Shown here: in pieces, positions 30,882 to 47,091 of the stretch | Position numbering within the stretch: the first letter of the stretch is position 1 | How the letters are laid out: the number at the start of each line of letters is the position of its first letter | Source: Caryophanales bacterium | GTDB taxonomy: Bacteria > Bacillota > Bacilli > CAJFEE01 | Assembly (NCBI GenBank): GCA_029256085.1 | Contig: JAQSYP010000004.1 | Coordinates: 172,414-236,413, forward strand | DNA length: 64,000 nucleotides | Reading direction: 5' to 3' | Notes under the pieces: model-generated | Told to the model about the DNA's origin: nothing | The model's database searches: none | Seen by the model: the letters and a program-made list of their open reading frames with translations, nothing else | Made by a program: the position numbers and the translations under genes

Positions 30882-30907
30882 AAACTGCCATTTTGGCAGT
30901 TTTTTTA
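30882..30907 (+). terminator. terminator after artR
   Basis: AAACTGCCATTTTGGCAGTTTTTTTA. Confidence 0.8.
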
Positions 30908-30955
30908 TGTATTTGCTAATCGATTTTTCCATATTTATATATGGAGGTGATAAAT

Positions 30956-32680
30956 ATGCTTTATATGAATGAATCAGTATTTAATGAAATATCGAAATTA
31001 AACTTTCTAGGAACTTTCGTTATAAATAAGAAAAACTTAAATAATAATATGAAGACGCGAAATTTAATTCAGTTTGATAAAGTAGGAGATTATCAAATAA
31101 GAGTTTATAAAAACGTTCCTAAAATATTAGAAAATTTGTTTATTGAGAATCAATATCAAATTCCTGTAGTATTTAATAAACACAATAATCTGAAGGTAAT
31201 AGAAGGTTTGAATGATAGAAATAACTTAGAAAATAAATTAGTGTTATTTAAGTTAGTAATCTCAAAAAACAAAATTCAAGTTAAGTTAATAAAAATTTTT
31301 GAAGAAACGCCAAGTGACAATTATATGATAATACCAATTGCCAGAAAAAAAAGATCAGTAAATATAGATATCTCAAATTTGCATATATCATACTTCAATC
31401 TTCCCTCATATCCAATTATATTTGGCACTCCAAGCTTTTTTTATTATAAGGGCAACATTTATATCCACAAATTCTCAATTACTAAAAGAGTAAATACAAA
31501 CGGAAACCTCAATCCCATATATCAGGATTCTAATATCTTATTAATAAAAATAAATGAAGAGGATATAAAACAGACTGAATTACTTATTGATACAGAAATC
31601 GCAAATAGGAATTCAACTATTAATATTAGTGATTCATTTAAGGAATATGAGTTTTTAGAAATATTATTAAATAATGCAAAAAAAGTTAACTTATTCATAA
31701 CAGAAAAAGATATTATTAATTTTCATACAAGCTTAAAAACTAGTATTTTCACAATATTAGATGGACATAGTGGAGTTGGGAAATCAGAGTTAATAAGATT
31801 GTACGCAAATACTATTGGATTAAATTTATCAACAAATTTTTTAGAGGTTCCTATATCTCAAAACATAACGAGTTTTAAAGATTTTGAGGAAGATTATGAT
31901 GTTAGGGGCTTTATAGAAAAGGCTTATAAAGATGGTGGTAACTTATACTTCTTAGTTTTGGAAGATTTTAACTCTGCTAATGTCGAAGTATATTTATCTG
32001 AATTACTATATTTAATATCCAGAGTCAATTCTACTTGTACTAATTTTTCAAATGAAGATATGGGTACAATAAAAATAAGTGATAATTTAATTATTATTGG
32101 AACTGTATCAAAAGGTATAAGCGCATATCCTATAACACCTAAATTAATAGATCGAGCAAATTACGTTTATATAGAAAAATCTATGTTTAAAAATATTCCT
32201 ACTAAATCTGAAAAGTCTAGTTTTATAACTTTAAACATAGGACATTACAATTTAAAAAGAGAATGGACAGTAAGTGATGAGTTTATAAGATTTTTTTCAC
32301 ATGATGAACTGAAAATATTTGATGCTATTAATGATTTATTAATAGATTATTCATCAAATGCAAATATAAACTTTAGAACACTTGTTAAAATGGGTAAATA
32401 CTCTATGAATCTTCCAATTTCAGGGAATAATAAATTTATATTAAATAGAGCGGAAATAATAGATTTAGTATTGTATTTGAATTTAGCACCTAAAATCTAT
32501 GGATCCCATCCGGCTCTGAGTATGATAATAGGAGAATATAATGGTTCAAAGTGGACTAAAGGTGAATTAATACAACTATTAGAAAGTGATTACGCTAAGA
32601 ATATTTCTAATTTCCATCTCACTATTCAAGCTTTAAATAAAAAAGCAAAGGAGCTTGAATATGAAGGATACGCTAGATGA
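30956..32680 (+). CDS. divergent McrB-like AAA+ NTPase of putative two-gene defence module
   Basis: Walker A DGHSGVGKSEL (about 31763-31789), Walker B-like LVLEDFNSANVEVYLSELLYLI, then IIGTVSKGISAYPITPKLIDRANYVYIE; GGAGGTGA before 30956. Confidence 0.75.
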   Translation: MLYMNESVFNEISKLNFLGTFVINKKNLNNNMKTRNLIQFDKVGDYQIRVYKNVPKILENLFIENQYQIPVVFNKHNNLKVIEGLNDRNNLENKLVLFKLVISKNKIQVKLIKIFEETPSDNYMIIPIARKKRSVNIDISNLHISYFNLPSYPIIFGTPSFFYYKGNIYIHKFSITKRVNTNGNLNPIYQDSNILLIKINEEDIKQTELLIDTEIANRNSTINISDSFKEYEFLEILLNNAKKVNLFITEKDIINFHTSLKTSIFTILDGHSGVGKSELIRLYANTIGLNLSTNFLEVPISQNITSFKDFEEDYDVRGFIEKAYKDGGNLYFLVLEDFNSANVEVYLSELLYLISRVNSTCTNFSNEDMGTIKISDNLIIIGTVSKGISAYPITPKLIDRANYVYIEKSMFKNIPTKSEKSSFITLNIGHYNLKREWTVSDEFIRFFSHDELKIFDAINDLLIDYSSNANINFRTLVKMGKYSMNLPISGNNKFILNRAEIIDLVLYLNLAPKIYGSHPALSMIIGEYNGSKWTKGELIQLLESDYAKNISNFHLTIQALNKKAKELEYEGYAR

Positions 32681-34250
32681 AGGTTATACATTAGTAAATT
32701 ATGATATTAATATAAAATTACCGTTTCTTTTGGAAATAGTTATTGGTAAAGGTGTCAAAGCAAAGCATATTCATATAAAAAATGTATGGAGCGATCTTGA
32801 TTTATATGAAGATGAGGTAGTCCAAATACAGGAATACAGATCTGTAAAGGTATATTTACACTCTCTAAAAGAGCAAGTAGTTAGACTTAATTGGGATAAA
32901 TTAGATGGGAAGTATGGGAAAAATATATCAAACTCCTACTTGTTATCAAAAAACATTCAAAATGTAGTTATATTTGAACAAGGTGTTTCCGAAGAAAATT
33001 ATCCATGGAATTGCGGAATTTATAGTATGGAAATAGTTTTTGAAGGGCAATCATATTGGACGTATTTTCAAATTGTCCCAAAAAACATTACTACATTACA
33101 ACTATATGATATACATGAATTAATACATGAACATGTTAATGGCCTCAGTCATCAATTTCATTCAAGTATAATTAAGGTAGATACACCCTCTAGTAAAATT
33201 GAACAAAGCATTACCGATTTAAATAATAAAATAATAAGTGAAGAAAAGAAGTTAAAAAACATGCTAGATTTAATTATTAACCGAAAAGTTAATAATTTTA
33301 GAATCGTAACAGATCTAATAGATCAAATTAGTGAAACGGTAAGCAAGTTCAACTCTCAATTAGAGAGGCTAAAAACTGCAAAATCCATTAATGTAAATAA
33401 ACATATCGATTATTTGTTTGATGCTGCGTCAAGATCACTTATTAAAATAATTAAAATAAAAAAATTACTTCAACACCTTAAATTGCACTTGAATTATAAT
33501 GATGTTGTTAACAATAACATTCCAAATATAAGAATTTATTCAAAAAAAGCTGAAAAAATTAAATCTAATTACTATAGGACACTCTCGCCGTATAAAGAGA
33601 CGTATTTAATGTATGAATATTACTGCTATTTTCTAATATTAAATATTTTGTTGGAATTAAAATTTAATTTTGATAAAGGAAATAATGATACTATCGACTC
33701 TATTATTAAATTAAATGTGCTACCAGAACCTACACACATTACAGTTGTTAAAGGGGAGTTAATATTAAAACTTGTTTTTAATGATATAATAGAACACTTT
33801 AAGTTTGGTGATGAAATAAAGACTGAGGGATTAATAAGTCTAGAAGAAAAGAGAAAACCAGATATCAGACTTGATATGTATACAAGAAAAAATAATTTAT
33901 TACAGTATCACCAAAGTATTATAATTGAAGTTAAATATAGTCCTATATATAACATTTATCAAAACAACTCTATTACAAAAGCTATGGATCAGCTAAAAAA
34001 ATATTGGACATTAAAATATTTAAAATATAGAAGAGGATACGATAATCAATTCATTAGAAATCCAATAAAGGAAGTAATTTGTTTATATCCAGGAAGTAAA
34101 TCTCATAACAATATAATTGAAACACCGATGGCTTTATTCATACAAACGTTTCCAATTCGTACTAAACAAAATAAAACCGTTCATGTAGGTAAAAAGGAAT
34201 TAAAAGAACTTATAGTTCATTCATTAAAGAATATAGATAAAAGTTTATAA
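32661..34250 (+). CDS. DUF2357-type / PD-(D/E)XK nuclease-like partner protein with coiled coil
   Basis: Overlaps upstream gene by 20 nt; coiled-coil-like SKIEQSITDLNNKIISEEKKLKNM...; C-terminal KPDIRLDMYTRKNN...IIIEVKYS (D...ExK). Confidence 0.65.
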   Translation: MKDTLDEGYTLVNYDINIKLPFLLEIVIGKGVKAKHIHIKNVWSDLDLYEDEVVQIQEYRSVKVYLHSLKEQVVRLNWDKLDGKYGKNISNSYLLSKNIQNVVIFEQGVSEENYPWNCGIYSMEIVFEGQSYWTYFQIVPKNITTLQLYDIHELIHEHVNGLSHQFHSSIIKVDTPSSKIEQSITDLNNKIISEEKKLKNMLDLIINRKVNNFRIVTDLIDQISETVSKFNSQLERLKTAKSINVNKHIDYLFDAASRSLIKIIKIKKLLQHLKLHLNYNDVVNNNIPNIRIYSKKAEKIKSNYYRTLSPYKETYLMYEYYCYFLILNILLELKFNFDKGNNDTIDSIIKLNVLPEPTHITVVKGELILKLVFNDIIEHFKFGDEIKTEGLISLEEKRKPDIRLDMYTRKNNLLQYHQSIIIEVKYSPIYNIYQNNSITKAMDQLKKYWTLKYLKYRRGYDNQFIRNPIKEVICLYPGSKSHNNIIETPMALFIQTFPIRTKQNKTVHVGKKELKELIVHSLKNIDKSL

Positions 34251-34273: not shown

Positions 34274-34311
34274 AAAGCGATAAAGACATTTTGTCTTTAT
34301 CGCTTTTTTTG
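34274..34311 (+). terminator. terminator after the two-gene cassette
   Basis: AAAGCGATAAAGACATTTTGTCTTTATCGCTTTTTTTG. Confidence 0.85.
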
Positions 34312-45654: not shown

Positions 45655-47091
45655 ATGAATACAAATTATGATGTAATAGTTGTAGGAGCAGGACCAGCTG
45701 GTATTTTTACTTGTTACGAAATAATTGAAAAAAAACCTGAAGCGAAAGTTCTCTTAATAGATAAAGGGCATGATATATACACTCGTAAGTGTCCGATTTT
45801 ACAGAAGAAGATTGATAAATGTCCACCAGCAGTTGGAAGAAAAGAATTTGCTGGATGTTTGCCAGCATGTTCTATAACTAATGGATTTGGGGGAGCAGGG
45901 GCATACTCGGATGGTAAATATAATATAACTAGCGAATTCGGTGGATGGATGACAGAATATCTAACACCTAGCGAAGTAGTTGAATTAATTAAATACGTTG
46001 ATGAAATCAATTTAAAGCATGGTGCTACGAATTCAATTACTGACCCTTTAACACAACAAGTAAAGGAAATTGAGAAGCGTGGGTATGCTGCTGGACTTAA
46101 GCTGCTACGCGCAGAAGTTCGTCATTTAGGTACTGAACAAAACTTAGAGATCTTAAAAAGTATTTTCGAATATTTATCAACTAAAATTGACATGGAATTT
46201 AAAGCGGAAGTAGAAGATATTATTACAGAAAAAGATGGACAAGATTACTACGCTAAAGGCATTGTTTTAAAAGATGGTAATCAAATTAGTGCTCAAAAAG
46301 TCGTAATTGTACCTGGCCGTGATGGTTCACATTGGCTTACAGGTATTTTAAAGAAGAGAAAATTGAAAATGATGAACAATCAAGTTGATATTGGTGTTCG
46401 TGTTGAGACTTCTAATGTTGTAATGGATGAAATTAATGAACACCTATATGAGGGTAAATTTATTTTCAATACATCAGTAGGAACAACCGTTAGAACTTTT
46501 TGTTCAAATCCATCAGGACATGTTGTAATCGAAAATCATTCTGGAATAATGTTGGCAAATGGTCATGCCTATAAGGACCCTAAATTAGGAAGTGAAAATA
46601 CTAACTTTGCACTTCTTGTGTCTCATAAATTTTCAGAGCCATTTGATAAGCCAAATGAGTTCGCACATGAAATATCAAAACTTGCAAACAGTTTATCTAG
46701 TGGTTCAGTAATTATCCAAAAGTATGGAGACATAATTAAGGGTAGACGCTCGACTAAAAAACGAATTGATGAAGGATTCATTGAGCCAACCTTAAAAGAA
46801 GCAATACCTGGGGATCTAGGTTTAGTACTTCCTTATATAACAATGAAAAGTTTAATTGAAATGACAGAAGCATTAAATTACGTGACTCCTGGCATTTCCT
46901 CTGAACATACATTGTTTTATGGTGTAGAAGCAAAGTTTTATTCGGCTAGACCGATGTTAAATCAAATGTTTGAAACTGAAATAAAGAGCCTTTATGCTGG
47001 TGGAGACGGTGCAGGTGTTACAAGAGGACTTGCGCAAGCAAGTGCATGTGGTGTCCAAATCGCTAGAGATATAATTGGAAAATTAAAGTAA
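45655..47091 (+). CDS. FAD-dependent oxidoreductase (uncharacterised dehydrogenase)
   Basis: YDVIVVGAGPAGIFTCYEI (FAD Rossmann); C-terminal SLYAGGDGAGVTRGLAQASACGVQIARDI. Confidence 0.88.
   Translation: MNTNYDVIVVGAGPAGIFTCYEIIEKKPEAKVLLIDKGHDIYTRKCPILQKKIDKCPPAVGRKEFAGCLPACSITNGFGGAGAYSDGKYNITSEFGGWMTEYLTPSEVVELIKYVDEINLKHGATNSITDPLTQQVKEIEKRGYAAGLKLLRAEVRHLGTEQNLEILKSIFEYLSTKIDMEFKAEVEDIITEKDGQDYYAKGIVLKDGNQISAQKVVIVPGRDGSHWLTGILKKRKLKMMNNQVDIGVRVETSNVVMDEINEHLYEGKFIFNTSVGTTVRTFCSNPSGHVVIENHSGIMLANGHAYKDPKLGSENTNFALLVSHKFSEPFDKPNEFAHEISKLANSLSSGSVIIQKYGDIIKGRRSTKKRIDEGFIEPTLKEAIPGDLGLVLPYITMKSLIEMTEALNYVTPGISSEHTLFYGVEAKFYSARPMLNQMFETEIKSLYAGGDGAGVTRGLAQASACGVQIARDIIGKLK

Follow-up and report, generated by a model that had tools for sequence, protein, structure and literature searches.

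Type I-B CoCoNuTs are three-gene systems of the McrBC class, comprising a coiled-coil protein (CnuA), a motor (CnuB) and a partner with DUF2357 and PD-(D/E)XK domains (CnuC), and are restricted mainly to Bacillota (Bell et al. 2024, PMC11090510). Pseudo-Type I-B CoCoNuTs of Bacilli have a two-gene CnuBC arrangement that lacks CnuA (PMC11090510). Type II and III CoCoNuTs present the reverse of the case proposed here, as they keep the GTPase and have an inactivated or lost PD-(D/E)XK nuclease. In McrB, the Asn and the Asp of the GTPase signature are each needed for basal and stimulated GTPase activity (PMC7680126); mutation of the Walker B Glu leaves the protein hydrolysis-deficient, and Walker B Asp mutants do not oligomerise (PMC6344862). 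A member of the McrB family can also be co-opted: Staphylococcus aureus PcdA, which positions the division plane, is a degenerate McrB and shows weak hydrolysis despite its degraded motifs (PMC10602043).

Here we analyse a pair of genes in a 64,000-nucleotide stretch of DNA (the window), which lies within contig C16 of a Bacilli genome of 2.63 Mb (17 contigs, rated 100% complete). The pair occurs in a single copy in this genome.

Results

Organization of the locus

A sequence-only reading of the window had picked out two overlapping genes, bounded by terminators and lying between amino-acid ABC operons, and had proposed that they form a self-contained antiphage module of McrBC type, possibly an unclassified subtype. 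The layout was borne out. Both open reading frames exist, overlap by 20 nt and have good ribosome-binding sites; terminator-like hairpins, identified by consensus match, lie on either side (Table 1); and strong Pfam matches mark the flanking transport genes as SBP_bac_3, BPD_transp_1 and ABC_tran upstream and Peripla_BP_6, BPD_transp_2 and ABC_tran downstream. Between the first hairpin and the motor gene, no promoter-like site was recognised. Those neighbours that were examined have metabolic and transport functions and give no defence-island context.

Table 1 Features of the locus, in window coordinates; gene limits run from ATG to stop, as read from the open reading frames
Feature	Position	Strand	Basis
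Terminator-like hairpin 3' of the upstream amino-acid ABC ATPase gene	30882..30902	+	consensus match only
Motor-gene ribosome-binding site GGAGGTG, six bases before ATG	30943..30949	+	sequence
CnuB/McrB-like AAA+ protein, 574 aa, degenerate NTPase motifs	30956..32680	+	alignment, profile comparison, model
Walker A GHSGVGKS, residues 270-277, kept in window copy	31763..31786	+	alignment
Degenerate Walker B LVLEDFN, residues 333-339 (family consensus hhFDEMN)	31952..31972	+	alignment
Lost GTPase signature GTVSKGI, residues 382-388 (family GTVNxDE)	32099..32119	+	alignment
GELIQLLESDY, residues 536-546	32561..32593	+	alignment with ortholog and canonical CnuB
Partner-gene ribosome-binding site GGAG	32650..32653	+	sequence
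CnuC/McrC-like partner, 529 aa	32661..34250	+	alignment, profile comparison
Nuclease Glu319 (YEYYCYF helix)	33615..33617	+	alignment
Nuclease P400-D401	33858..33863	+	alignment
Nuclease E423-V-K425 (ExK)	33927..33935	+	alignment
Nuclease Q444...Y448 (QxxxY)	33990..34004	+	alignment
Terminator-like hairpin 3' of the partner gene	34274..34306	+	consensus match only

A locus shared by two genera

The comparison within the order covered two genomes from different genera: the window genome (G000) and Candidatus Harrysmithimonas galli (G001), a metagenome-assembled genome that carries the pair at the same locus on contig CAJFEE010000005.1 (L061). In a scan of genome contigs with the partner pair, the H. 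galli record was the only match. Gene order and orientation are shared, with protein identities of 72% for asparagine synthase, 52% for the C39 peptidase, 43% for the SBP, 55% for the permease, 71% for the ATPase, 25% for the motor and 32% for the nuclease. The pair thus evolves faster than its surroundings (25 and 32% versus 43-72%). Downstream, the window, unlike H. galli, has further genes, among them the branched-chain amino-acid ABC operon, between the pair and a probable FAD-type protein (window 45655-47091), which is 73% identical to the product of the first gene after the pair in H. galli and has no Pfam match at 1e-10.

Identity at codon positions 1/2/3 is 0.43/0.60/0.39 for the motor gene and 0.46/0.60/0.40 for the partner gene, with shuffles giving about 0.27/0.31/0.33. 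These values show selection on protein sequence; by this measure, purifying selection has acted on both proteins for much of the time since the two genera separated. The shared chromosomal place of the pair suggests that its function is settled and resident, not that of a mobile defence cassette. Universal vertical conservation at the locus across the genus, with no defence-island association, was what the sequence-only reading had named as evidence against its own proposal, and the presence of the pair at one place in the two genomes compared comes close to it.

Homology to Type I-B CoCoNuTs

Single-sequence scans of both window proteins (Pfam, NCBIfam, PHROGs and a PDB sequence search) returned nothing above cut-offs. 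When each protein was paired with its ortholog, hhalign against the Type I-B CoCoNuT-like family gave E=3.9e-46 for the motor and 4.2e-41 for the partner. Structure prediction and PADLOC had both been suggested as checks in the sequence-only reading. In AlphaFold models built from shallow alignments, the AAA+ core blocks of the motor are mostly at 65-88 pLDDT, the N-terminal 228 residues fall under 50, and the best Foldseek match is E. coli McrB (6hz4, with 6ut6 also among the best matches; E about 1e-6), so that, with the PD-(D/E)XK partner, the McrBC homology proposed in the sequence-only reading is correct; the partner gave a poor model and a fold search without a match. The sole PADLOC match of the motor, to PDC-M26A of the PDC-M26 candidate system, is weak (4.5e-7), and the window partner has no match to PDC-M26B; a complete system elsewhere in the same genome matches PDC-M26A at 1.1e-41, and its partner matches PDC-M26B.

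Motor-related matches occur in 58 of 399 genomes of the class, a count that includes more distant McrB relatives. In nearly all of the 25 related loci read in detail, a gene of DUF2357/PD-(D/E)XK type comes after the motor, and in 23 of them a frame of 313-498 aa lies directly before the motor; the two exceptions are L060, where the upstream gene is in shorter broken frames, and L034, where the sequence stops 17 bases past a 147-aa frame. One complete operon of Type I-B CoCoNuT-like layout is present in the window genome itself (L012:7030-11739, equivalent to G000:C1:117029-121738; motor locus L004/L012), with a coiled-coil protein of 325 aa, a motor of 678 aa with intact motifs and a DUF2357/PDDEXK_7 protein of 569 aa. 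In the Pfam scan, this last protein passes the cut-off for PDDEXK_7 and falls just short of it for DUF2357. By their layout, NxD signature and Bacillota range, the related three-gene loci match the published Type I-B, an assignment made without alignment to the sequences of the paper. By origin, therefore, the window pair is not an unclassified subtype.

The window pair resembles Type I-B CoCoNuTs in its almost full-length homology to CnuB and CnuC, gene order, overlapping frames and PD-(D/E)XK partner. It differs in having no CnuA, in the loss of NxD and of the DUF2357 hallmark, in its altered Walker B, in its fixed locus and in length (574 and 529 aa versus about 620-746 and 540-645 aa). The gene 5' of the motor encodes the amino-acid ABC ATPase; a search for CnuA found one match in the host genome, at the other locus (G000:C1), and none in H. 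galli, where the DUF2357 of the complete operon likewise has no match. Because the tests for CnuA and NxD fail, we file the pair as derived from Type I-B CoCoNuT, a variant and not a member.

In a tree, the two motors of the order form a clade (97/92) nested among the Type I-B-like motors and separate from the CnuB that the window genome encodes in its complete system, although both branches are very long (2.88 and 7.03). Since long branches call for caution, the case for orthology rests more on synteny. With the same caution, the separate groups in the tree disfavour an origin of the window pair by duplication of the complete CoCoNuT in its own genome.

Several other loci show how the family varies. 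Among the loci read, from 399 genomes of the class and 398 of the phylum, no other degenerate pair was seen. L092:3472-7291, from outside the class, is a motor-nuclease pair with intact motor motifs and no upstream CnuA, its upstream genes being HD-GYP-like and thioesterase-like; loss of CnuA alone need not, then, bring loss of motor motifs. In L096:4509-6226 and L099:2491-4535 (same phylum, outside the class), the motor is in two frames and the downstream nuclease gene is open, through either assembly error or real decay. Searches of a viral collection and phage records with the window motor found no relatives of it, and tblastn against plasmids found distant relatives of the motor only and none of the partner. 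On an Enterococcus faecium conjugative plasmid (L100; NZ_MT074686.1 82263-90757), AAA ATPase, motor-like and nuclease-domain pieces of the family are present with several IS elements between them, and a complete three-gene system of the family (L062:5943-10706) lies on a 120-kb viral contig, IMGVR_UViG_2910903598_000004.

Degeneration of the motor

We scored the motor motifs against 28 canonical motors, among which N-x-D-E is near-invariant. The Walker A reported in the sequence-only reading is present. The Walker B-like stretch VLEDFNSAN is also real, aligning to hhFDEMNL, but both of its acids are altered; likewise, the GT...PKLIDRA block corresponds to the GTVNxDE...DKVLDRAN of the family, but the N, D and E of the signature are all replaced. 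About 12 residues are missing from the loop after Walker A. The H. galli motor has lost Walker A (GRDSYTHR), has VENLN at Walker B and reads GTLLDSE at the signature, so NxD is lost there too. A sequencing error in the metagenome-assembled genome is an unlikely cause of its Walker A loss, as its reading frame and flanking sequence are undamaged and both genomes have lost other motifs. Overall, 32 of 56 near-invariant motor positions are kept in the window copy, 28 in the ortholog and 21 in both.

Because residues required in the McrB proteins studied (Asn and Asp of the signature, and the acids of Walker B) are replaced, GTP hydrolysis by the window motor is probably lost or weak. The window copy may still bind nucleotide or hydrolyse it weakly, since Walker A, R400 and R474 are kept. 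Two otherwise canonical motors (L006:5122-7146 and L091:3064-5175) have EEMN for DEMN in Walker B; the first acid is thus not strictly Asp, and its change to Glu is not by itself inactivating.

The N-terminal ~230 aa of the motor, judged from alignment, appear to be a shortened and diverged CnuB N-terminus and not an unrelated module. CnuB of Type I-B has CSD/YTH-like domains at this end; in the window motor, the stretch is the one modelled at pLDDT under 50. Near the other end, GELIQLLESDY has the same letters in the ortholog and is unconserved in canonical CnuB, making it a lineage-specific motif.

Retention of the nuclease

Residues 15-166 and the C-terminal third of the partner align to canonical CnuC. 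The region between them is diverged and shorter: the DUF2357 hallmark is gone and invariant DUF2357 positions are absent or altered, and the DUF2357 model, which scores above cut-off on the CnuC of the complete system, finds neither the window partner nor that of H. galli. The C-terminal PDIRLD...IIEVKYS fits the PD...ExK of a PD-(D/E)XK core, to which Glu319 and Q444...Y448 can be added, and all of these residues (Glu319, P400-D401, E423-x-K425 and Q444...Y448) are found in both orthologous partners. Identity to the ortholog is 50-57% in 40-residue windows from residue 377 to ~456, and the H. galli partner exceeds the PDDEXK_7 cut-off (22.8 versus 22.1 bits). Both copies keep 11 of 13 partner invariants, compared with 21 of 56 for the motor. 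The chemistry of the motor and the domain that stimulates it have thus eroded together, and the nuclease has been retained.

Discussion

The explanation we favour, and regard as fairly probable, is that the pair arose from a Type I-B CoCoNuT and has been passed on vertically as a derived two-gene form from which CnuA is absent, in which motor chemistry is mostly lost and the nuclease kept, and whose motor is a non-cycling scaffold or gate. The AAA+ protein would bind nucleotide at most statically, or turn it over weakly, and would no longer drive GTP-powered translocation; instead, it could act as an assembly scaffold or gate for the PD-(D/E)XK nuclease. Activation of the nuclease would then follow from target binding to the divergent N-terminal region, or from a change in assembly, rather than from processive GTP hydrolysis. 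The weakest step concerns the role, which would most likely be an immune or stress response, based on the nuclease and resident in this bacterial order; we favour such a use over housekeeping because the pair diverges faster than the neighbouring genes. The fuller statement, that a CoCoNuT-class restriction system has been domesticated at a fixed locus in one Bacilli order, with its GTPase now a pseudo-enzyme and its nuclease still active, we put forward tentatively, at slightly less than even likelihood. With two orthologs known, both on very long branches, some of the losses could come from relaxed constraint.

That the pair was co-opted for a cellular role outside defence, as PcdA was but with the nuclease still attached, seems rather unlikely, although it has a precedent. 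Like the window motor, PcdA is an AAA+ protein of the McrB family that has degenerated and persists in one Bacillota lineage; it has a degraded Walker A and has lost the Walker B Glu (PMC10602043). The fixed locus and selection on the window pair would suit such a role. By contrast with the window motor, and comparing by description, PcdA carries EVE domains, lacks a nuclease partner and has lost the helical bundle at its C-terminus, whereas here the nuclease is kept and is among the most constrained parts of the pair. Moreover, the pair diverges faster than its neighbours, and the neighbours examined show no link to division genes.

A working antiphage module of McrBC type, in which GTP-driven translocation on modified nucleic acid is followed by cleavage by the partner, is improbable. 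McrBC/CoCoNuT homology, the Walker A of the window copy, intact nuclease residues and a fast divergence like that of conflict genes all fit such a module. Against it, NxD is lost in both orthologs and Walker A in one, the DUF2357 hallmark of the partner is gone and the locus is fixed in two genera. The window pair shares with E. coli McrBC the AAA+ core fold and a PD-(D/E)XK partner in the following gene; the NxxD GTPase, methylcytosine-binding ADAM domain and McrC DUF2357 of E. coli McrBC are not recognised in it. The self-contained antiphage module of the sequence-only reading is doubtful for the same replaced GTP-hydrolysis residues, for the shared locus and for its metabolic and transport neighbours.

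Equally improbable is assignment to the Pseudo-Type I-B CoCoNuTs of Bell et al., for which a stress role is proposed and which may borrow CnuA from a complete system. The pair lacks CnuA, and its genome does hold one complete CnuABC-like operon, at G000:C1. However, NxD is stated for all motors of the tree of Bell et al. and is lost in the window motor; the described neighbours, a quorum-sensing synthase and a mechanosensitive channel, are absent among those examined; H. galli has no CnuA match; and, in the tree, the window motor and the CnuB of the complete operon fall into different groups. The comparison with the published type, which has NxD and another neighbourhood, is by description.

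Finally, a decaying restriction-system relic heading for loss, as the absent CnuA, lost motor motifs and long branches might suggest, is the least probable reading, since purifying selection on both proteins argues against a simple relic, both genes are open in two genera, conservation at codon positions 1 and 2 is far above chance with the third near chance, and the nuclease core and C-terminal motor motif are near-identical between the orthologs.

More broadly, GTP-driven motion is understood as needed for cutting in McrBC-class systems, and a selectively maintained pair whose motor is degenerate and whose nuclease is intact offers a natural test of nuclease control without GTP hydrolysis. 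If the descent and domestication proposed here are correct, the window motor would be, besides PcdA, a second McrB relative settled in the chromosome of a Bacillota lineage, in this case with its nuclease still attached.
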